Source: Dehalococcoidia bacterium (GTDB taxonomy: Bacteria; Chloroflexota; Dehalococcoidia; DSTF01; JALHUB01). Taken from it: 64,000 nucleotides of DNA. The first letter of the stretch is position 1; each line of letters begins with the position of its first letter. Below the pieces are notes generated by a model. The model saw only the letters and a list, made by a program, of their open reading frames with translations, did not search any database and was not told the origin of the DNA. The stretch covers positions 62,001-126,000 of the forward strand of contig JASEFU010000004.1 of NCBI GenBank assembly GCA_030018455.1, in the 5' to 3' direction. A program made the position numbers and the translations under genes. Shown piece by piece: positions 48,626 to 60,097 of this stretch.

Positions 48626-51031
48626 TTATTCTTCGAGGCGAAGGTTCACGAACAGACGCATCGGCTTGTACTGGAACAGGCGGTACAAATCGAGCTGGTC
48701 GGTGGTGTGCGGCCCCAACGTGCCGTCGGGCGCAACAAACGAGCTCTGCCCGAGCGGGATGATGTTGTAGGCCTCGATCGTCGGCTTCTTCAGGACGACG
48801 ACCTGCGCGTAGGTTGACCGGTTCGACAGGGGGATGCGGCCGAACTCGATGCCGAGCGGGTGCCGGAATACCGTCTCTTCGCGCGGAACGAACCAGCGCG
48901 ACATGTCGCTTGTTTGGAACAGGTACGCGATGGAATCGAGGGCTTCTTCGAGGCTGCGGACCATCAGCACATTGGGGTCGGCGCCGTTGAAGTAGTCGAA
49001 GTGAGGCGGGACCGCGCTCGCGCCGCCATCGAGGGCATGCAGCAAGACGTTGGCGTCGACAGATTTTACCGCGCCACCCATCTCGTCACCGAAGGTGGCG
49101 TGTTTCATCTTGTCCTGCCACACCCAGAAGACCACGTGTCCGAGCTGGTACTGCTTGCTGGTGATAACGTCGCTGATGGCGGAGCCGTCCCACTGTTCCA
49201 GCGCCTGCCGCGCCTGCGGGACAAGCGGATGGGCCGACGGCACGGCATCGAGGGCGCGCATGAGGTACGGCAGCAGGAAGCGCGACTCTCGCCCCATCGT
49301 TTCCACGCGCCCGATGTCCTTCGGGATGTCGAACATGTCCTCCAGCGAGATGAGTTGCGGCCCCGCGAGCCTGTCCTGGATTTCGAGCACGCGGTTCTGC
49401 TTGCCGAAGCGCTGACCATCGGGGTCGTCGAACCAGACGGCGGGCTTGTTGTTCCAGTTCGCGAGCCAGGCCTGAAGGGGGTTGATCGAGACGGGCATGG
49501 GGCGGAAGCCGCCGGGCCATTCGGCCTCCCCCGTGCCGGGCAGGGGCAGGCGCGCGTCGTAGCCGGCGGGCCGCAACGGCACCTCGCCGGTCTGCCAGTA
49601 GGCGATGTTGCCCTCGTTGTCAGCGTACATGAAGTTGTGCGCCGTGACGATTAGTCTGGCCGCCTGCTCGAACTGCTGCGGGGTGTGCGAGCGCCCGAAC
49701 ATCAGGAACGGACGCGTGTTCTCGAACTCGCGCATCCAGTGGACACGCTTCTGGCTGAACGCCACGCCCTTCTCGTGGTCGAAGCCGATGACGGGGCCGT
49801 GCACCGTCCGGTAGACGTCGTAGGCCACGTCTGTAGTCTTGAGGGGGACGCCGGGCAGGCTGACCCTCATCTTGATGATTTCTTGCCGCGCTTCCATTGG
49901 CGTGCAGACGCCGTTGAACATGTAAGATGTCGGGCCGCAAAGCGTCTCGACGTACGTGTCCACGTTGTCCCCGGTGGCGGTCGTCGAGGTCCACGCGATG
50001 TCCTCGTTGCGGCCGATGAGGACGGGCGGCACGCCGGCGAAGGCCATGCCCGTGACGTTAAAGCCGCTGCCGCCTTTGAGCTGCACCTCGTGGATGACGG
50101 CGGGCGTGTCGAACCCCATCTGAGGGCCGCCGTAGAGCATCGCCGCGCCTTCGGCGCTCTTGTTCGGCCGGACGGCCCAGGCGTAGCTGCCGAGCTTCGT
50201 GGGGATGCCCAGCGAGGCCCACAGCTCCTTCGCCCTCTCCAGTCCGTCCGTCGCGACGGCGGCGCCCACGCCTCGAAGCTGCGCTTCCAGGCCGGCGGGC
50301 AGCGCTGACGCCGTTGTGCCGGGGGCGATTTGCGGGCTGCCGGGCGCGGGAATGGTGGTCGGCGAATCGCGGTCGTTGGTCCAGCGGAGGTCGTTGAACA
50401 TCGCCCAGCCTGCGGCTTCACCGTTCCTGGCGATGAGCTCGTCCAGCAGCGCCTGGTTCTTGAGTTCGCCGCCGCCGATCTCGCCGAACCGCCTCACCAT
50501 GAAGGCCCCAAAGGCGGCAGAGTCGCGCAGCGTCCAGAGGCCGGGCGAGAAGCCCAGGAAATGGAACTCGTACGGCATCTTAGAGGGGTCTTTGCGGACG
50601 ACCTCCTTGATGTAGCGGTTGATGCCGTTGACGTAGGCCGTATAAATGACACGTTCTTCTTCGCTGACCTGAGTGAGCACATAGTCGAGCTCGGCGTCGG
50701 TGTAGCCGTCGCGACGAACCTCCTCGTCCGCTTCGAGGAAGGACGGGCCGAAGACCTCGGCGAGCTTTCCCGTTGCTGCCCGCCGGTGCAGCTCGAGCTG
50801 CCAGAGGCGGTCCTGCGCCACCGTGTAGCCGTACGCTTCGAAGAGGGCGGCGTTGGTGGACGCGAAGATGTGGGGGATGCCCCACTCATCGCGGTAGATG
50901 CGCGCGGTCACTCCTCCGACCTCAAGCGTGGTCCACCCGTCTTCCGCCTCCACCGAGTCCAGCGTGGGCTGCGACGCAAACGCCGCGATGAGAACGAACA
51001 GGACGATCAGTATCCGGCTGTGTGATTTCAT
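48626..51031 (-). CDS. Penicillin acylase family hydrolase
   Basis: An 801-residue exported Ntn-hydrolase precursor. A signal peptide (about 1-29) leads into GGVTARIYRDEWGIPHIFASTNAALFEAYGYTVAQDRLWQLELHRRAATGKLAE, the typical start of the alpha chain. Maturation should cut before Ser282 in LGSYAWAVRPNKSAEG. The usual motif is Ser-Asn-x-Trp, so Tyr-Ala here is unusual. NWNNKPAVW carries the likely catalytic Asn. The natural substrate could be an N-acyl amide, for example a homoserine lactone, lipopeptide or beta-lactam. AAGGAGG precedes the ATG. It is the last gene after the cupin and sugar-dehydrogenase genes on the same strand. Confidence 0.93.
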   Translation of the reverse strand: MKSHSRILIVLFVLIAAFASQPTLDSVEAEDGWTTLEVGGVTARIYRDEWGIPHIFASTNAALFEAYGYTVAQDRLWQLELHRRAATGKLAEVFGPSFLEADEEVRRDGYTDAELDYVLTQVSEEERVIYTAYVNGINRYIKEVVRKDPSKMPYEFHFLGFSPGLWTLRDSAAFGAFMVRRFGEIGGGELKNQALLDELIARNGEAAGWAMFNDLRWTNDRDSPTTIPAPGSPQIAPGTTASALPAGLEAQLRGVGAAVATDGLERAKELWASLGIPTKLGSYAWAVRPNKSAEGAAMLYGGPQMGFDTPAVIHEVQLKGGSGFNVTGMAFAGVPPVLIGRNEDIAWTSTTATGDNVDTYVETLCGPTSYMFNGVCTPMEARQEIIKMRVSLPGVPLKTTDVAYDVYRTVHGPVIGFDHEKGVAFSQKRVHWMREFENTRPFLMFGRSHTPQQFEQAARLIVTAHNFMYADNEGNIAYWQTGEVPLRPAGYDARLPLPGTGEAEWPGGFRPMPVSINPLQAWLANWNNKPAVWFDDPDGQRFGKQNRVLEIQDRLAGPQLISLEDMFDIPKDIGRVETMGRESRFLLPYLMRALDAVPSAHPLVPQARQALEQWDGSAISDVITSKQYQLGHVVFWVWQDKMKHATFGDEMGGAVKSVDANVLLHALDGGASAVPPHFDYFNGADPNVLMVRSLEEALDSIAYLFQTSDMSRWFVPREETVFRHPLGIEFGRIPLSNRSTYAQVVVLKKPTIEAYNIIPLGQSSFVAPDGTLGPHTTDQLDLYRLFQYKPMRLFVNLRLEE

Positions 51032-51093
51032 GTCGGCGTCCTCCTTCTGAATAAAGACCGCTACCCGGCGGCGACGGGGACAGGACGAGTGCG

Positions 51094-51441
51094 TCAGGAT
51101 TTTATCATAATCAGGGCCATCTTAAAGGGCGTAAGGGCCAAGACAGAGTGCGGCGTGTCCGCCGGGAGGAGGGTCATCTCGCCCCGCTTCAAGACGACGG
51201 CGTTGCCGGCGACCGTTATCTCCGCCTCCCCCTCAAGAACGTAGGCGAGGGCGGTGAAGGGGGTGGTGTGAGAGGAGAGACCCTCTTTCGCATCGAAGGC
51301 AAAGAGCGTGACGTTGCCGCCGCTGCCGCTAACCAACTGACGGCTGACGATGGAGCCCCCCTGGTGCTGGACCATTTCCTCGGGTCTGAAGGCGCGCCCT
51401 ACCAGATCCCGCCCCTTATCGCCGGCCTGTTGTCTCGACAA
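51094..51441 (-). CDS. Cupin-domain protein
   Basis: A protein of about 115 residues with a single cupin barrel. FDAKEGLSSHTTPFTALAYVLEGEAEITVAGNAVVLKRGEMTLLPADTPHSVLALTPFKMALIMI shows the two cupin motifs, with His in SSHTT and TPHSV as possible metal ligands. The frame starts at a TTG (51498). A second TTG at 51441 has GGGAGG 6 nt upstream and is preferred. ATG at 51375 would lack an SD sequence. It may be an enzyme or small-molecule sensor. Confidence 0.82.
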   Translation of the reverse strand: MSRQQAGDKGRDLVGRAFRPEEMVQHQGGSIVSRQLVSGSGGNVTLFAFDAKEGLSSHTTPFTALAYVLEGEAEITVAGNAVVLKRGEMTLLPADTPHSVLALTPFKMALIMIKS

Positions 51442-51507
51442 GGTCTGCCTCCCGTTACCTTTGCTGGGAGTATGGAACGCGGGACGGGCTTGTGGCAAGC
51501 AGTCACG

Positions 51508-52740
51508 TTATTTGGGCTGGAGACGATAGATCGCGTTGGCCTGGGTGATTATCAGGAGCTCGCCGTCGGGCAGCTCGGCGAAGGAGGTGATGGGCAGCCC
51601 GCTCTCGACGAGGAGCACCGGCTTACTGTCGTCGGCGGGATTAAGGGCCCAGACGCGGCCGCTGCAATAGTCGCCGAAGACGTACCAGCCGGCGAGCTCG
51701 GGCATGGCGACGCCCCTGTAGACGTAGCCGCCGGTAATCGAGCAGCCGAGATCGTGGCCGTAGGCGGCGCGAGGCAGGGCGAGCCCCTGCGTGTCGCAGG
51801 CGGGCGTCTGGAAGCACTCGAAGCCTTCCATTAGGCTCCAGCCGTAGTTGCCGCCGGCGACAATGAAGTCGATCTCCTCCCATGCCGATTGGCCGACGTC
51901 GCCCGCCCAGATCGCGCCCGTGGAGCGGTCGAAGCTGAAGCGCCAGGGATTCCTGAGGCCGTAGGCGTAGATTTCGGGGCGAGCGCCCTCTACGTCGACG
52001 AACGGGTTGTCGTCGGGGACGGAGTAGCCTTCAGGCGTCACTTCAATGCGGATAATGGACCCCAGCAATGTCCCCAGGTTCTGCCCGTTGCCCAGGGGGT
52101 CGTTCGCGCCGCCGCCGTCGCCGAGGCTGAGGTAGAGGTAGCCGTCGGGGCCGAACGCGAGCTGGCCGCCGTTATGGTTGGTGAAGGGATCGGGGATTTC
52201 CAGCAGTACCTGCTCGCTGTCGGGGTCGAGCTGGATGTCGCCCACCGTGAACCGCGACAGGACGTCGCGGCGGGGTTCCCTGGAGACGTAGTAGACGAAG
52301 ACCTGCCTGTCGGTGGGGAAGTTGAGGGAGAAGGCAAGGCCGAGCAGGCCGTCCTCGAAGCCTTCTCTACCGACTCGATCAGAGAGGTCGGCGTACAGGT
52401 CCGGCGCGAAGGAATCGGTGAGCGAGACGCGCCAGATGAAGCCGTCTTGCGTCAGGACGACAGCTTCGCCCTCCCTGTCCGGGATCGCGACCAGGCCAAG
52501 CATCAGGCCGAAGTTGGCCGATTCGACGGCGCGGACGACCCGATACGCGTTCTCCTCGGGGCCTTCTCCTGCGGGACTCGTGACCGGGGGCGCGCCCGGC
52601 GGCGGTTCCACCGTCCTCGTGACGATGTTTGCCGGTTCGCCATTACCGTTGTCGCCGCCGCCGTCGCGGCACGAGACGGACAGGATGGCAGCAACGGCCG
52701 CGAGAAGGAGGGCGGGAAAGAGCAGCCGCAGACTCTTCAT
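51508..52740 (-). CDS. PQQ-dependent sugar dehydrogenase family lipoprotein
   Basis: A 410-residue exported lipoprotein (lipobox ILSVSC) of the soluble glucose/sorbosone dehydrogenase six-bladed propeller family. Marks: GLLGLAFSLNFPTDRQVFVYYVS, NHNGGQLAFGPDGYLYLSLGDGGGANDPLGNGQNLGTLLGSIIRIEV, YGLRNPWRFSFDRSTGAIWAGDVGQSAWEEIDFI and GGYVYRGVAMPELAGWYVFGDYCSGRVW. The His and Gly/Asp clusters fit the active site of this family, but not every member uses PQQ. No pqq genes are in the window. The ATG at 52749 lacks an SD sequence. The one at 52740 gives a cleaner signal peptide. Confidence 0.9.
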   Translation of the reverse strand: MKSLRLLFPALLLAAVAAILSVSCRDGGGDNGNGEPANIVTRTVEPPPGAPPVTSPAGEGPEENAYRVVRAVESANFGLMLGLVAIPDREGEAVVLTQDGFIWRVSLTDSFAPDLYADLSDRVGREGFEDGLLGLAFSLNFPTDRQVFVYYVSREPRRDVLSRFTVGDIQLDPDSEQVLLEIPDPFTNHNGGQLAFGPDGYLYLSLGDGGGANDPLGNGQNLGTLLGSIIRIEVTPEGYSVPDDNPFVDVEGARPEIYAYGLRNPWRFSFDRSTGAIWAGDVGQSAWEEIDFIVAGGNYGWSLMEGFECFQTPACDTQGLALPRAAYGHDLGCSITGGYVYRGVAMPELAGWYVFGDYCSGRVWALNPADDSKPVLLVESGLPITSFAELPDGELLIITQANAIYRLQPK

Positions 52741-52809
52741 CTCAGACATCCTGCTATCACGGCACTACTGTTGAGAATAGCAGAAGCGCCACGGCGTGTC
52801 TTTGACTGA

Positions 52810-53607
52810 ATGGCCGGAGCGGGCGCTCTGCGGCGTGCTAGAATGGATCAAGACCCCAAGATGAGTGGGCCGATGAAGGAACTGACGGGCCCCCATGTTC
52901 CGCGACGCCTCTTCTCGCCGATCGCGCACAACTACGAACGGCCCGCGCTCACGCTCAGCCTCTTTCAGTACAGGCGCTGGCGCCGCTTCATGCTGTCGCG
53001 GCTGGATCCGGACGGTCTGACGAGGCGCGACAGACAGACGCGGGTGCTGGACGTGGCCACCGGGACAGGCGCGCTCGCCTTCGACCTGCTGGAGCGAATG
53101 GAGGGGTTGCGCGTAGTGGGCGCGGACATAACGCGCGCGATGCTCCGGGAGGCACAGGCGCGGGCGGGTCGCGACGGCACGGGCAGGCGCCTCGAGCTGG
53201 TGGAGTGCGACGCTGAAGCGGCGCCTTTCCGCGACGAGAGCTTCGATGCACTCCTCTTCGCCTATCTGCTCCGCTATGTCTCCGACGTGCCGGGCACCCT
53301 GCGCGCGCTCGTTCGGCTGCTGAAGCCCGCGGGCACGATGGTCTCGCTCGATTTCGCCGTGCCGTCGGGGCTTGCCTATCCCCTGTGGCGCCTCTACACG
53401 GGGCTCTTGTTGCCTGTGGGCGGCAGACTTTATTCAAAGGCCTGGCAGGAGGCGAGCGGATTTCTGGGGCGCAGCATACGCGGCTTCTATGAGCGGTGGC
53501 CGGAGGAGCGCCTGCTGGAGGAGTGGGCGAGGAGCGGACTCGTCGACGTGCAGGCGCGGCGTCTGTCTTTGGGCGGGGCGATAGTGATATGGGGGAGGAG
53601 AGCATGA
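52810..53607 (+). CDS. SAM-dependent methyltransferase, UbiE/MenG-like
   Basis: A protein of up to 265 residues with a class I Rossmann methyltransferase fold. Motif I is VLDVATGTGALAFDLLE, motif II is VVGADITRAMLREAQARA, and CDAEAAPFRDESFDALLFAYLLRYVSDVPGTLRALVRLLKPAG follows as in UbiE/MenG. FSPIAHNYERPALTLSLFQYRRWRRFML at the start also fits that group. The exact start is uncertain: ATGs at 52810, 52843, 52861 and 52873 all lack a good SD sequence. It overlaps the UbiA-like gene by 4 nt, so the two are probably partners on a lipid or quinone-like substrate. Confidence 0.85.
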   Translation: MAGAGALRRARMDQDPKMSGPMKELTGPHVPRRLFSPIAHNYERPALTLSLFQYRRWRRFMLSRLDPDGLTRRDRQTRVLDVATGTGALAFDLLERMEGLRVVGADITRAMLREAQARAGRDGTGRRLELVECDAEAAPFRDESFDALLFAYLLRYVSDVPGTLRALVRLLKPAGTMVSLDFAVPSGLAYPLWRLYTGLLLPVGGRLYSKAWQEASGFLGRSIRGFYERWPEERLLEEWARSGLVDVQARRLSLGGAIVIWGRRA

Positions 53608-54371
53608 TGAAGGGCTGGCAGCGGGCCACGGATGCCATGGCGCTGGGTCGGGTGCGCGAGTTGAGCCCCGCTTTCTACGCGCTGAGTCCGGGAGGGTGGC
53701 GTGATTATGTGACGCTGTTCCATCTGCCTTACACGTTGTGGCACCTGAGCTACGTCGTGCTGGGGGCGGCCATTGCCCCGAATGTGCACTGGGACCGGCT
53801 GGCGGCGTCGCTGGCGGCGTTTCTGCTGGCGATGGGCCTCGGGGCGCACGCGCTCGACGAGCTATCGGGGCGGCCGCTGAAGACGCGCATTCCGGAGGAG
53901 GCGCTGAAGGCAATCGCGGTGCTGGGCCTCTGCGGGGCAATCGGGCTGGGGATGGCGGGCGCCGTGCTGGTGACGCCGTGGCTCCTGGCATTCATATGTT
54001 TCGGCGCTTTCATAGCACCGGCCTACAATCTGGAGTGGTTCGGCGGGAGATTTCACTCCGACGCGTGGTTCGCGCTGTCGTGGGGGAGCTTCCCGCTCGT
54101 CACATCCTACTGGGTCAATGCGGAAGAAGTGGGGCCGGCAGCGTTAGCCGGTGCCGCGGCGGCTTTCTTCTTGAGCCTCGCTCAGAGAACGTTGAGCCAT
54201 CGGGTGCGCACAGTGCGGCGGAGGGTGAGCGGCATCGAGGGCACGGTGCGCTACGCGGACGGCGGGATCGAAGCGATAGACCGCGGCTGGGCGCTGGGGG
54301 TGGAGGAGCGGGCGCTGAAGCTGCTGACGGCTTCTGTCGTAGGGGTGAGTGTCGCAGTGCTTCTGGCGTGA
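53604..54371 (+). CDS. UbiA-like integral membrane protein, divergent
   Basis: A 255-residue membrane protein with several helices. TLFHLPYTLWHLSYVVLGAAIAP resembles the first helix of UbiA prenyltransferases. LGAHALDELSGRPLKTRIPEEALKAIAVLGL lies where UbiA has its Asp-rich NDxxDxxxD motif, but only one Asp-Glu pair remains. FGAFIAPAYNLEWFGGRFHSDAWFALSWGSFPLVTSYW resembles the second UbiA loop, again with few Asp residues. The start (53604) overlaps the methyltransferase stop and follows GGGGGAGGAG. It may be a prenyltransferase with altered metal binding, or a non-catalytic relative. This is an inference from pattern only. Confidence 0.65.
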   Translation: MMKGWQRATDAMALGRVRELSPAFYALSPGGWRDYVTLFHLPYTLWHLSYVVLGAAIAPNVHWDRLAASLAAFLLAMGLGAHALDELSGRPLKTRIPEEALKAIAVLGLCGAIGLGMAGAVLVTPWLLAFICFGAFIAPAYNLEWFGGRFHSDAWFALSWGSFPLVTSYWVNAEEVGPAALAGAAAAFFLSLAQRTLSHRVRTVRRRVSGIEGTVRYADGGIEAIDRGWALGVEERALKLLTASVVGVSVAVLLA

Positions 54372-54530: not shown

Positions 54531-55124
54531 ATGGGTTACTGCCCGGACTGCGGCGCCGAGAACGAGGCCGACGCCGTCTTCTGCGAGGCGTGCGGTGCGC
54601 GTTTGGCGGCGACGTTGCTCACGCGTGGGACATCGAAACGAGGGGTTCAATCGAGGAAGCTCCGTCCGTATCTCGGTGGGGCGCTCGTACTATCGGTAGC
54701 GATTGTGTTTGGCGCCGCCGCTTACGCGCTGGTCGGCCGGGGAGACGGTGGGGCGGGAGGCGAGAGCGCGGTGGCCGATCGTGCGACCGCCACCGTCGGC
54801 GTCGAACCCACCGTTGTCACGACCGTTCCGCGGACCGCGACCATGCCGGCGCTTGCAGGCCATTCCTCGCCTGAAGACGCAATAGGGGCCTTTCTGGCAG
54901 AGCGCGGGGTCGAGTACGCCGGCGATTGCGACATGATAAGCCTGGACGAGGACATCGGCTCGTACTGCTCCATCCTGTGGGAAGAGCGGTCGGATGGGGA
55001 TATCTACGCTATCGGCCTCGCTTTCTCGGAGGGCGATACCTGGCTGCTGGTGGAGGAGAGCGAAGGCCGCTGGGCCGTCGTCGAGGCGGCGGAGCTGATA
55101 TTCGGCGAGCCGCCTCCCTGGTAA
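54531..55124 (+). CDS. Zinc-ribbon membrane protein
   Basis: A 197-residue protein. The N-terminal zinc ribbon (MGYCPDCGAENEADAVFCEACGARL) is cytoplasmic. A transmembrane helix follows (YLGGALVLSVAIVFGAAAYALVG, about 47-69). A Thr/Val-rich linker then leads to an outside domain (about 108-197) with SSPEDAIGAFLAERGVEYAGDCDMIS and two cysteines that may form a disulfide. The outside part resembles small immunity- or cystatin-like folds only vaguely, so the function is unknown. GGAGG precedes the ATG. Confidence 0.82.
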   Translation: MGYCPDCGAENEADAVFCEACGARLAATLLTRGTSKRGVQSRKLRPYLGGALVLSVAIVFGAAAYALVGRGDGGAGGESAVADRATATVGVEPTVVTTVPRTATMPALAGHSSPEDAIGAFLAERGVEYAGDCDMISLDEDIGSYCSILWEERSDGDIYAIGLAFSEGDTWLLVEESEGRWAVVEAAELIFGEPPPW

Positions 55125-55139
55125 GCGCAGGATCTGACG

Positions 55140-56030
55140 TCAGGGAAGCAGATCGGGCAGCGCCACCAGCTCGTACCCGGCGGCGCGCAGCCCGGCGATC
55201 ACTTCCGGCAGCGCCGCGGCGTCCTGTGATTCCGACCCCACGTGCATGATGACGATTGCCCCCGGCCGAGCCCGTGAAAGCACCGTCTGCGCGATCTCGC
55301 CGGCGCCGGCGCCTGCCCAGCCCCCGCTGTCGATCGTCCAGTTGATGGCGTAGGTATACCCGGCGGCGTAGATATCGCAGAGCACCGACTGGTCGAGGTC
55401 GCCGAAGGGCGGGCGGAAATAGGGACGTGTGCTTGTGCCGGTGATGGAGCGGATTACGGCGTCGGCGTGCTGTAGCTGGTCGATCCGCTCGTCGCGGGTT
55501 AGCGGCGCCGTGCCGGTCGAGAAGCCAGTGAACGAGGGGTGGCCGTACGAGTGGTTGATGATGAGGTGGCCGCCGGCGGCGATTGCGCTCACGAGGCCGG
55601 GGTTTTGTTCCGCCCAGACGCCGGTGAGGCCGAATGCGGCTGTCACGCCTTGTTGGGCCAGCGTGTTGAGGATATCGCTCGTGTAGCCTCTGTCGGCTCC
55701 CGCGTCGAAGGTGAGGGCGATAGCCCGCCGGGTCTGGTCGCCGATGCGCGCCTCGACTGCTGCCTGTCCGCAATACAAGTCCAGCGGCGGTCTGGCGACG
55801 GGCGGGATGGGCGCGAGCGGTGTCGGGTCCTGCGGGGCGGGCGTCGAAGTGGGGGCGCCACTAGGAGGTGTCGGGGTGGAGCGGGGTGGCGAAGTGGGAG
55901 TAGCGGCCGCTGGTTCACCGGTGGGGACAGGCAGCGCTTGTTCGCTGCCGCAGCCGGCGAGCAGGCCAAGAGCGAGGGCGCCCGCGACGGCCAGGACGAG
56001 TGGGCGAAGACGGGAAGTCGCGCTTAACAT
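55140..56030 (-). CDS. Polysaccharide deacetylase lipoprotein (NodB domain)
   Basis: A 296-residue lipoprotein (lipobox LGLLAGC, about residue 27) with a Pro/Thr linker (about 35-85) and a NodB deacetylase domain. RAIALTFDAGADRGYTSDIL supplies the catalytic Asp, but the usual second Asp is Ala, as in some deacetylase families. INHSYGHPSFTG gives the metal His pair, and PYFRPPFGDLDQSV gives the RPPxG motif. The end motif IVIMHVG is intact. It probably removes acetyl groups from a cell-wall or surface polysaccharide. The ATG at 56030 is preferred to 56081, which would precede the signal peptide. It is convergent with the zinc-ribbon gene. Confidence 0.92.
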   Translation of the reverse strand: MLSATSRLRPLVLAVAGALALGLLAGCGSEQALPVPTGEPAAATPTSPPRSTPTPPSGAPTSTPAPQDPTPLAPIPPVARPPLDLYCGQAAVEARIGDQTRRAIALTFDAGADRGYTSDILNTLAQQGVTAAFGLTGVWAEQNPGLVSAIAAGGHLIINHSYGHPSFTGFSTGTAPLTRDERIDQLQHADAVIRSITGTSTRPYFRPPFGDLDQSVLCDIYAAGYTYAINWTIDSGGWAGAGAGEIAQTVLSRARPGAIVIMHVGSESQDAAALPEVIAGLRAAGYELVALPDLLP

Positions 56031-56073
56031 AACGCCTCGATTATACGGCGGCCTTCCGCGGCGAGGAACGCAT

Positions 56074-58128
56074 TCATGCATATGCCAGGAGGGCCATGTG
56101 GAAGATGTTGAGTTCGGGGAACTCCACCTCCGCGTAGTCGCCTTCGCGACGCCACGAAAGAGGCTGCTCCGCGGGCAGCAAGGCGGCCCTTTGGAGAGTC
56201 TTGCCGTCTAGCTTTACCCTTACCTTCAAGTTGTGGGCAGGGACGGGCGGAAGCAGCTCCTGCTCGTTTATCAGGGAGACGAGGTAGCGCTTCCGCTCCG
56301 GCTGGTGAGAGAGCGTTACTTCGACCGCAGGCGGCGCGTCGGCGTCGAACGAGAAGGGCTGTGCCGCCAGCGAGCGCACGATCTGCACAAACGCCTGCTT
56401 GTGGGGGGGCTGGTCGGCTGCCTCGATGGGCGCCGCCGCCCACGCCACTCTGCCTTTGCCGGCGCGACGCCGCACGAGCGAGGCGTAGTCGGTGGCGATG
56501 CCGGGCGGGTTGGAATGGATCGATGCGAGGCGCGAGCCGTCGGAGGGGTCGGTGTAGGGCAGCGTCAAGGTGGCGGCGACGTCGTCGCTGTTGTGGGCGC
56601 GCGCCTTCACCTGCGGCCGGAAGATGCTCAGCGGGAATGCGGGCTCGATGCCGGGGAAAAGGGAGCGACCGCTCTCAGTCGGGCTCATGTAGGTCACGTT
56701 TTCCGCCGTGTCACCCTCGGTTTCGACTCCGAAGAGGTCGGCCAGGCGGGCCAAAGGGGCGCGTCCGCTGGCGTACAGGCCGCCGCCGTCTTCGACGAAC
56801 CGTCGCAGCGCCTGCGCCTCTTCATCATCGAGGAACAGCAACTCCGGGAGGACGATGACGCGGTACTTCGACGTGTCGGCGAGGTTGTTCTTGCTGATGA
56901 CGCCGAAGGGGATATGGGCTTCGCGCAGGCTCCGTGCCGCGCCTAACGCCGCATCGAGGTGGGGCACCCTCCAGCCGGCGGCGGTCACCCGCTTGCCGTT
57001 GTCGTCGAAGTCCATCTTCGAGTCGAGGCTGAAGTAGACGGCAACGTCCTGGCAGAGGTCGCCGCCGAGGAAGGGCTCGTACTCGCGGGAACGGGAGAAT
57101 ATCTCGCCCATCGTCTCGTAGACGCGCGGGTTCAGGGTCCCGACGGGGTCGATGGCATCGATGAAGAAGAAGGCGCCGTTGTGGGCCATAGCCAGGTAAG
57201 CGTGGACCTCCAGCATCTCTTTGGACTTAGCCGTAGTGTGGTCGCGCAGGCTGGGGTAGCAGCGGGAGGTCATGAACTCGAACGGCTTGTTGGGGGTGAT
57301 GCTGTCGTACAGCTTGCAGATGAGGGACTGCTGCGCGAAACCGCCGTAGAGGTCGCCGCCGATGTAGTCGTTGTGCTCGCGCAGCGCCAGCGTCGTGCCG
57401 ATGACGCTGCTCTGGGTGAGGGGCGCCGAGTTGTGCTCGACCGTTATTTCCGGCCGACATCGCCGCGCGGTGTTGGTGGCGAAGGCTGCGAACTCCACCA
57501 GCCACTCCTCGCGTTTCTTCTGGAACGTCAGCCAGCGGTCGTCTTCCCAGTTGATGACGTCCGGCATGTCGCCGCCGACTTCGGACTCGAAGCGGGCGCG
57601 GCAGGCGGGGCAATAGCAGACACCGGGCCAGAACGTCATGTCGAAGAAGATGCCCTCGAAGCGGTAGGCGGCGAGGAGCTCCTCGACCTGCGCGGTCACA
57701 AACGCCCTGTAGTCGACGTTGTTGGGGCAGCAGACGCCGTAGCGGCCCGCCCTTCCGCCGCGCTCCCTGGACGGCTTCCCGTCGACGTCGAGGATGCGCC
57801 AGGAGGGGTTATTGTCGTAGGCCCAGTTGTTGAAGATGAGGCTGTAGTAGGCGATCACATCGATCCCTTCGCGATGGCAGAGGTCGGTGATTTCGCCCAG
57901 TACGTCCCTGCCGCGCAGGCCCCGGTGCATCTGCCCTGTCTTCGTCGGCCAGTAGCAGTAGCCGACGTGCGAGTTGGCGTAGACCATAGCTGACTTGACG
58001 TTGGCGGTCTTCAGCAGCTCGACGTAGGTCTGCGGGTCGAGTTTCGAGAGGAAGCTGTCGTCCCAATCGTCGATGTGCATGTCGACGAGGTTGCGCCGGT
58101 AGCTCTTCGTGAACCATTTGCCTTCCAT
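56074..58128 (-). CDS. GHL6-like / beta-galactosidase-trimerisation glycosidase
   Basis: A 684-residue enzyme with a TIM-barrel glycosidase core. MHIDDWDDSFLSKLDPQTYVELLKTANVKSAMVYANSHVGYCYWPTKTGQMHRGL, FEGIFFDMTFWPGVCYCPACRARFESEVG and EITVEHNSAP match hypothetical glycosyl hydrolases of the GHL6 type. A central region (about 390-600, VISKNNLADTSKYRVIVLPELLFLDDEEAQALRRFVEDGGGLYASG) resembles the beta-galactosidase trimerisation domain. A small beta domain ends it. There is no signal peptide, so it should act in the cytoplasm. AAGGAG lies 6 nt before the ATG. The deacetylase gene follows after 43 nt. Confidence 0.85.
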   Translation of the reverse strand: MEGKWFTKSYRRNLVDMHIDDWDDSFLSKLDPQTYVELLKTANVKSAMVYANSHVGYCYWPTKTGQMHRGLRGRDVLGEITDLCHREGIDVIAYYSLIFNNWAYDNNPSWRILDVDGKPSRERGGRAGRYGVCCPNNVDYRAFVTAQVEELLAAYRFEGIFFDMTFWPGVCYCPACRARFESEVGGDMPDVINWEDDRWLTFQKKREEWLVEFAAFATNTARRCRPEITVEHNSAPLTQSSVIGTTLALREHNDYIGGDLYGGFAQQSLICKLYDSITPNKPFEFMTSRCYPSLRDHTTAKSKEMLEVHAYLAMAHNGAFFFIDAIDPVGTLNPRVYETMGEIFSRSREYEPFLGGDLCQDVAVYFSLDSKMDFDDNGKRVTAAGWRVPHLDAALGAARSLREAHIPFGVISKNNLADTSKYRVIVLPELLFLDDEEAQALRRFVEDGGGLYASGRAPLARLADLFGVETEGDTAENVTYMSPTESGRSLFPGIEPAFPLSIFRPQVKARAHNSDDVAATLTLPYTDPSDGSRLASIHSNPPGIATDYASLVRRRAGKGRVAWAAAPIEAADQPPHKQAFVQIVRSLAAQPFSFDADAPPAVEVTLSHQPERKRYLVSLINEQELLPPVPAHNLKVRVKLDGKTLQRAALLPAEQPLSWRREGDYAEVEFPELNIFHMALLAYA

Positions 58129-58300
58129 GGAACTCCTTTCTATCGGGGGCCTGGTTGCCTTCGCGAGTATAGCAGGGAAGGGACCGAGACCAAAACAGGG
58201 GACAGCCGGTCGGTGAGCCGGATAACCAGTCACCGAATAGGAATGGATAAACGGGTGAGGTGGCGAGTGGCGCAGCAGTGGGAGGGTCGGGCCCGGCCCG

Positions 58301-58347
58301 ATCTATCGGCTGCAGGACGGAGTCCCGCAGCCAGAGTTGGAACCGGT
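58301..58347 (+). repeat. Intergenic palindromic repeat, copy B
   Basis: A 47-nt element shares ATCTAT, TGCAGGAC and ACCGGT with copy A (54421-54468) at matching positions. The hairpin core reads CTGCAGGACGGAGTCCCGCAG, with one mismatch in the stem. About three quarters of bases are shared by eye. Confidence 0.7.
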
Positions 58348-58353
58348 CTTCCT

Positions 58354-58438
58354 GCTGAAGCGTCGTTCAGCCGCAAGCCTGCCCGGCCGGCAGGCGGGCA
58401 AGCACCGTTCGTCTGCTGAAGCGACGTTTGGCGCAAGC
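58354..58438 (+). repeat. Short direct repeat pair GCTGAAGCG...GCAAGC
   Basis: Two related units, 58354-58379 and 58415-58438, read GCTGAAGCGwCGTTyrGC(C)GCAAGC. They are separated by 35 nt holding a CCCGGCCGG palindrome. They directly follow repeat copy B and probably belong to the same class of intergenic mobile or decayed element. Confidence 0.6.
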
Positions 58439-58567
58439 ATCTCTCGTGTTGTACCGGAGCGGCCCCGCGACGGCTTCGCCTTGTCAGGGTGAGGCTTTGT
58501 ATGTTAAGAAGGAGTTGTTCGTGGCACCACGAAAGGTGTTCTGCGGTCGCCTTCAGGGAGGGTGAAG

Positions 58568-60097
58568 GTGTTCAAGAAGCTCCTTATCGCCAACCGTGGC
58601 GAGATCGCTTTACGAGTGATGCGCACCTGCCGTGAGATGGGCATCTCCTGCGTCGCGGTTTACTCCGACGTCGACCGTGCGGCCCTCCACGTCCGTTACG
58701 CTGACGAAGCGTACCTGCTGGGTTCCGGCGCGCCGAAAGAGAGCTACCTCAACATCGAACGCATCGTCGAGATCGCGCGGAGGTGCGGCGCCGAGGCCAT
58801 CCACCCCGGGTACGGCTTTCTTGCGGAGAACGCCGCCTTTGTCGACGCGTGCAACGAGAACGGCATCGTCTTCATCGGGCCATCTTCCGAGACGATGCGG
58901 ATTATGGGCGACAAAGTGGCGGCGCGGCGTCTGGTGGCGAGCGCGGGTGTGCCCGTAGTGCCGGGTGAGGACAACGTGAGGACGGCGCTTGAGGCGCTGA
59001 CGGCGGCGGAGCGGCTCGGCTATCCGGTGCTCATAAAGGCGGTCGCCGGTGGTGGGGGGAAGGGCATCCGCGTCGTGCACGGCGTGCGCGACATGGAAGC
59101 GGCCCTGAGCATCGCCGGCAGCGAGGCGGCGAGCGCGTTCGGCGACCACAACCTCTACATCGAAAAGCTGCTCGATCCGGTGCGTCACGTGGAGGTGCAG
59201 TTTGTGGCCGACGGCGCCGGCAACGTCCTCGTCTTCGGGGAGCGCGAGTGTTCAATACAGCGGCGCCATCAGAAACTCGTTGAGGAATCGCCGTCGACGG
59301 CTCTCAGTCCGTCCCAGCGCGAGAGCATGTGCAGCGCCACCGTCACCGTCGCCCGGGCGTCGGGCTACGCCAACGCGGGCACGGTCGAATTCCTGCTCGA
59401 TGCGGGCGGCGACTTCTACTTTCTCGAGATAAACAGCCGGCTACAGGTGGAGCACCCGGTGACGGAGATGATAAGCGGCATGGACCTGGTGGCGGAGCAG
59501 ATCCGCGTCGCCGCTGGCGAGGGGCTCTCGCGACGGCAGGAGGAGATCGTCCTGAGCGGCTGGGCGCTGGAGTGTCGCATCACCGCCGAAAACCCGTACG
59601 ACGACTTCCTTCCCTCGCTGGGCCGCGTCGATTACGTCAGCGAGCCCCACGGCCCGGGGATCCGCGTTGACAGCGCGCTCTACTCCGGCTGCGATCTCCC
59701 GTACTATTACGATCCCATGGTTGCCAAGGTCATCGCCTGGGGACGCACGCGCGACGAAGCAATCCGACGTATGCGGCGGGCTCTCCGCGAATTCGTAGTT
59801 GTGGGCGTTGATACGAACATACCCTTCCATCTGCAGTTGCTCGACGACCGGCGCTTCCTGGACGGGCAGCTTCACACGCGCTTCCTTGACGACTTCACGA
59901 TGTTTCCCGCCGAGCAGGATGACGAACGGAACGCCGCCCTGGCGGCCGCTGCCGTCCTCACCCATCAGAAGACAAACCACCGGGCGCCCACGCCGGAATA
60001 CGATGACGGCAGCCGATGGCGCGCGGCAGGCAGGCTGGCAGAAGCCAGAGCGACGACCTGGCCGAGAGGTCCGCAGTGGGGAAGAAGTATCGGCTGA
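58568..60097 (+). CDS. accC: Biotin carboxylase (acyl-CoA carboxylase subunit)
   Basis: A 509-residue ATP-grasp enzyme that carboxylates biotin. MFKKLLIANRGEIALRVMRTCREMGI opens the pre-ATP domain. VLIKAVAGGGGKGIRVV is the glycine-rich ATP loop, and FGERECSIQRRHQKLVEESPS and FYFLEINSRLQVEHPVTEMISGMDLV carry catalytic residues. The last 50 residues are variable. A GTG at 58562 abuts GGGAGG. GTG at 58568, 6 nt after it, is the better start and gives the conserved N-terminus. BCCP overlaps its end. The carboxyltransferase gene is not in this window, so acetyl-CoA versus propionyl-CoA specificity is open. Confidence 0.94.
   Translation: MFKKLLIANRGEIALRVMRTCREMGISCVAVYSDVDRAALHVRYADEAYLLGSGAPKESYLNIERIVEIARRCGAEAIHPGYGFLAENAAFVDACNENGIVFIGPSSETMRIMGDKVAARRLVASAGVPVVPGEDNVRTALEALTAAERLGYPVLIKAVAGGGGKGIRVVHGVRDMEAALSIAGSEAASAFGDHNLYIEKLLDPVRHVEVQFVADGAGNVLVFGERECSIQRRHQKLVEESPSTALSPSQRESMCSATVTVARASGYANAGTVEFLLDAGGDFYFLEINSRLQVEHPVTEMISGMDLVAEQIRVAAGEGLSRRQEEIVLSGWALECRITAENPYDDFLPSLGRVDYVSEPHGPGIRVDSALYSGCDLPYYYDPMVAKVIAWGRTRDEAIRRMRRALREFVVVGVDTNIPFHLQLLDDRRFLDGQLHTRFLDDFTMFPAEQDDERNAALAAAAVLTHQKTNHRAPTPEYDDGSRWRAAGRLAEARATTWPRGPQWGRSIG

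Follow-up and report, generated by a model that had tools for sequence, protein, structure and literature searches.

Prenyltransferases of the MenA/UbiA superfamily (PF01040), among them AfUbiA (4tq3-4tq6), ApUbiA (4od4/4od5) and UBIAD1 (8djk), have nine transmembrane helices in the canonical members and carry an NDxxD motif and a second DxxxD motif. To our knowledge, two Asp-rich metal sites are required in all well-known UbiA enzymes. Loss of both Asp motifs usually entails loss of prenyltransferase activity. MenA is followed by MenG, which belongs with UbiE and COQ5 (PF01209, TIGR01934; COQ5 structure 4obw) to a family of C-methyltransferases. A locus that combines relatives of both families, and that differs from menA-menG in several respects, is analysed below.

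Organisation of the gene pair

Within the window, i.e. the whole 64,000-nucleotide stretch of DNA that was analysed, two consecutive genes were located on the forward strand. The first (bp 52810–53607, 265 aa) encodes a UbiE/MenG-type SAM-dependent methyltransferase of a clade apart from canonical MenG, and the second (bp 53604–54371, 255 aa) a seven-helix membrane protein of the UbiA superfamily without the canonical Mg2+/diphosphate motifs. Both open reading frames were present and shared a 4-nt ATGA stop/start overlap (bp 53604–53607, forward strand), as had been stated in the preliminary description, an arrangement that suggests translational coupling; a ribosome-binding-like sequence, GGAGGAGAG, lies just 5′ of the ATG of the second gene. 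The true start of the methyltransferase gene may be 17 codons downstream, at bp 52861, since homologues begin near that position. Neighbouring genes in the window (bp 48626–52749 and bp 54531–60097) encode a penicillin amidase, a cupin, a glucose/sorbosone dehydrogenase, a zinc-ribbon protein, a polysaccharide deacetylase, a glycosyl-hydrolase-like protein and a biotin carboxylase, and no pathway hint for the pair was found among them.

Methyltransferase

The first gene product had been described earlier as UbiE/MenG-like, and this assignment held. It matched Pfam Ubie_methyltran (PF01209) with 105.5 bits (cut-off 20.1), retained the SAM motif LDVATGTG and the UbiE-type C-terminal region, and matched COQ5 (4obw) nearly from end to end. 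Its score against TIGR01934 was 120.7 bits, below the cut-off of 158.35, and in a phylogenetic tree the pair methyltransferases formed a clade of their own, separate from the canonical MenG proteins of the same genomes (SH-aLRT 99). The pair methyltransferases have an invariant LLRYVxD, whereas the canonical MenG proteins of these genomes mostly have LRN or LRH in place of LLRYV. One row inside the pair clade that carried a different label (L139) turned out to be the second pair copy of G006, a genome with two copies of the pair. The third-best NCBIfam match was MpqE, a methyl-plastoquinone methyltransferase (NF052510), at 106 bits; with a cut-off of 335 bits, the protein is not a member of that family.

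Fold of the UbiA-like protein

Sequence models alone gave little for the second protein: Pfam UbiA (PF01040) reached 12.1 bits, below its gathering cut-off of 34.2, no NCBIfam model matched, and 24 of 82 family members were matched by Pfam UbiA at E up to 0.5, the best at 4e-6. A PDB sequence-profile search returned no meaningful match, and only the fold search succeeded. An AlphaFold2 model (pLDDT 94.2, pTM 0.88, from a 73-row alignment) consisted of seven long helices with a beta hairpin before the last one, in contrast to the nine transmembrane helices of canonical UbiA members. When this model was compared with the PDB by Foldseek, the top 12 matches all belonged to the UbiA superfamily (prob 0.98–1.00, best E 7e-3, TM about 0.5), including chains of AfUbiA, UBIAD1 and ApUbiA (fold match at prob 1.00), a membrane PRTase and an archaeal lipid synthase; the E-values are modest, yet the top matches all agree on this superfamily. 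A profile comparison with MenA by hhalign (prob 91%, E 1e-6) covered residues 101–191, corresponding to helices 3–6, and is a likeness to MenA that comes in addition to the UbiE/MenG-type methyltransferase as partner. Structure prediction, by which the preliminary description had proposed to decide whether the UbiA-like helices that it noted form a UbiA fold, thus returned that fold, and the profile comparison agrees; on the model, the second protein has the all-helical membrane fold of UbiA.

Replacement of the Asp-rich motifs

The first Asp motif survives, where helix 63–87 ends, as the remnant H82-A-L-D85-E86-L-S-G-R-P91-L-K-T94 (bp 53847–53885, forward strand), which includes the HALDELSGRP (residues 82–91) that had been picked out from the sequence and that has the family form HALDELxGRPL. 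Near-global hhalign, of low confidence outside the core, aligned D85 with the final Asp of NDxxD in MenA; in this register, the N position of the motif is occupied by A or S and the first D position by an invariant H82. The first Asp-rich motif, NDxxDxxxD, is therefore missing, with D85 alone remaining, so that the earlier remark on the absence of the usual Asp-rich motifs and the retention of HALDELSGRP was correct. The site of the second Asp-rich motif, at the end of helix 178–207, is occupied by Q194-R-T-L-S198-H-R-V-R202-T-V-R205-R206 (bp 54183–54221, forward strand) in the invariant form QRxLSxxxRxxRR. No conserved acidic residue was found at residues 186–211, the region of the second UbiA motif, among 82 sequences, a result for which the exact alignment is immaterial. 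MenA/UbiA enzymes thus have NDxxD and DxxxD where this protein has HxxDE and QRxLSxxxRxxRR. In the model, the conserved segments at the ends of both helices and in the loop after helix 127–142 are predicted to coincide with the active-site loop positions of UbiA.

Fifteen polar or aromatic residues were invariant in all 82 sequences of the family alignment (Y25, H40, Y43, H82, D85, E86, T94, Y141, H151, W160, Q194, S198, R202, R205 and R206), as were P91 and L197 in the two segments. Of the fifteen, those from H40 to R206 are predicted to sit in loops or at helix ends that correspond to the active-site face of UbiA. Every invariant residue was also kept in L021 and L051, two members of this alignment whose genes are solo. 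Strict invariance of this kind, with the solo members included, argues against simple decay of the motifs.

Distribution and linkage of the two genes

A search of 60 related genomes yielded ten UbiA-like members in nine genomes, including the host, and a scan of GTDB contigs yielded 246 relatives. The best 80 of the 246, which were taken for locus analysis, came from metagenome-assembled genomes (MAGs) of Chloroflexota and Actinomycetota, together with one contig each under the labels Chlamydiae and Bacterium HR32. About 28 of the 301 genomes in a sample of the phylum carry the family; five further weak matches in this sample are probably ordinary UbiA proteins, two of which adjoin a canonical MenG. 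Flanking DNA was sufficient to judge adjacency in 75 of the 80 GTDB loci, and in 73 of these the methyltransferase gene and the UbiA-like gene were same-strand neighbours, with the gene order reversed in one (L055). The two remaining genes, L021 and L051, had no adjacent methyltransferase gene. L021 is followed by a large open reading frame that appears molybdopterin oxidoreductase-like by eye, and no second UbiE-type methyltransferase was detected in the L051 genome at the threshold used. Because identity within the family is 45–68% across two phyla and adjacency of the genes is near-universal, the observation is more than chance.

At least five genomes, from three families, have the two genes fused in frame (L008/L033, L022/L162, L161 of G285, L163 of G292 and L164 of G124). 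Fusions had first been read from open-frame lengths, and they were confirmed in G285, G318, G124 and G292; a candidate in G215 was not confirmed, and in G207 the common reading frame lacked the SAM motif. The structure model of a fusion protein (pLDDT 91.9, pTM 0.65) was confident for the domains and not for their packing. Mirror-tree comparison gave r 0.72, as high as in none of 1,000 permutations, a value to which species phylogeny contributes and which it alone could produce. That the pair is functionally linked, as previously proposed, is supported by the conserved adjacency, the several fusions and the one reversed order; its homologues, whose failure ever to co-occur with the methyltransferase had been named as counter-evidence, lie beside it in nearly all judgeable loci. 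The flanks gave no clue to a substrate, as they vary across loci (by eye, proline dehydrogenase, XseA, HflX-like, SDR and other genes), and no more than 6 of the 80 GTDB loci have an NmrA-like reductase close by. No paper on such a methyltransferase/UbiA-like pair was found in the open-access literature, which does not prove that there is none; within this conserved two-gene module, the UbiA-like protein apparently represents a divergent and undescribed branch of an otherwise known superfamily.

Relation to menA-menG and to quinone-ring synthesis

A menA-menG operon also lies on contig C3 of the host, separate from the pair (L169, 5823–6563 and 6560–8170, overlapping), and its products scored above the cut-offs for MenG (TIGR01934, 187 bits) and MenA (TIGR00751, 116.5 bits). 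This operon resembles the pair in the two superfamilies involved and in a 4-nt overlap, but differs in that menA comes first, the metal motifs NDxxD and PDxxxD are intact, and the methyltransferases fall into different clades. The host MenA homologue (L169, 6560–8170) is 536 aa long, with about 200 residues ahead of the UbiA domain that matched no Pfam family at E 1e-5; a related protein of G001 seems to share this extension.

A canonical MenG was present besides the pair in 51 of 54 carriers, including the host (7/9, 20/20 and 24/25 in the three carrier sets), and a separate MenA-family match in all 29 carriers tested. MenG is common throughout the phylum sample (243 of 301 genomes), and its enrichment in carriers was not significant (26/28 versus 217/273, Fisher p 0.13); with so high a base rate, co-occurrence was rejected as a sign of a common pathway. 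Two carriers, G005 (96% complete) and G032, had no canonical MenG above the cut-off, and the pair methyltransferase may serve as MenG in them. For most carriers, replacement of canonical MenA and MenG by the pair was rejected on these counts. Coupled, sometimes fused and distinct from the host MenA-MenG operon, the pair represents an ancient paralogue of menA-menG in which the acidic two-metal site of the UbiA fold has been replaced.

By family searches, MenB exceeded the cut-off in 16 of 29 carriers and not in the remaining 13, which include the host, and in none of these 13 did the same kind of search detect MenD above the cut-off or MqnA/MqnD (PF02621); two MenB-positive controls both gave MenD. 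The pair therefore does not require that the naphthoquinone ring come from a recognised source, and it is possible that gaps in the MAGs or divergent enzymes explain the missing genes. The host (G000, 97.7% complete) and the 12 other carriers have MenA homologues, and most of them MenG, despite the lack of detectable ring genes, so they may use ring enzymes that have diverged, or a quinone route that has not been recognised. The absence of classical and futalosine ring genes by the tested markers fits the suggestion that further quinones await discovery (PMC13386864).

Possible function of the pair

By analogy with MenA and MenG, and from the residues conserved, the reading that we consider most likely (probability roughly 0.45) is that the pair is a coupled module for a prenyl lipid in which the UbiA-like protein is catalytic; a prenylated aromatic (quinone-like) lipid would be made or modified by it with no use of the customary two-metal diphosphate site. 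That the two genes form a stand-alone, membrane-bound two-step module related to the menA-menG pair seems to us to have a little less than an even chance. In such a module, an anionic prenylated lipid would be bound at the active-site face of the UbiA fold by the Arg cluster R202/R205/R206 together with Q194 and S198, with H82-D85-E86 placed opposite, and would be processed outside the standard two-metal diphosphate mechanism, either without any metal or with one metal that H82/D85/E86 would hold. C-methylation of the aromatic ring in this product would then fall to the methyltransferase, in the order known from MenA and MenG, and the end product would likely be other than ordinary menaquinone: a quinone-like lipid, modified or additional.

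As the main alternative, it is conceivable, if rather doubtful, that the UbiA-like protein does not catalyse anything and instead binds lipid as a scaffold in the membrane, from which a prenylated substrate is presented to the methyltransferase, the chemistry being left to the latter. Loss of both metal motifs and of two helices leans towards such a binding scaffold, and tight coupling and fusion to the methyltransferase would suit it as well. However, membrane anchoring needs less than a fully invariant H/D/E/Q/S/R set, and the retention of this set in the two solo members, one of them in the L051 genome, where no second UbiE-type methyltransferase was detected at the chosen threshold, would count against a protein without catalysis. 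It appears improbable that the pair is an alternative MenA-MenG for ordinary menaquinone: the protein superfamilies are identical for both genes and two carriers lack a canonical MenG above the cut-off, but the UbiA-like protein has no MenA metal motifs, and canonical MenG and MenA-family proteins accompany the pair almost throughout, in the host as an operon. Scarcely more plausible is the modification of ready-made menaquinone, e.g. by extra ring methylation or chain modification, to which the MenA and MenG homologues of most carriers and the MenB of 16 of them could be added in support; the 13 carriers in which no MenB, MenD or MqnA/MqnD was detected speak against it, and the extra ring methylations of menaquinone known to us are made by enzymes other than the UbiE type.

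Returning to a catalytic UbiA-like protein, we regard as tentative, and on balance doubtful, the more specific proposal that the acidic two-metal diphosphate site has been rebuilt as a His/Asp/Glu plus three-Arg site and that in Chloroflexota and Actinomycetota the enzyme, with a dedicated and sometimes fused methyltransferase, makes a prenylated quinone-like lipid that is as yet undescribed. Since the module consists of two genes, or of one fused gene, it is directly testable. A conserved branch with replaced UbiA metal sites and a methyltransferase, in two large and mostly uncultured phyla, would mean either new chemistry on this fold or a new lipid product.
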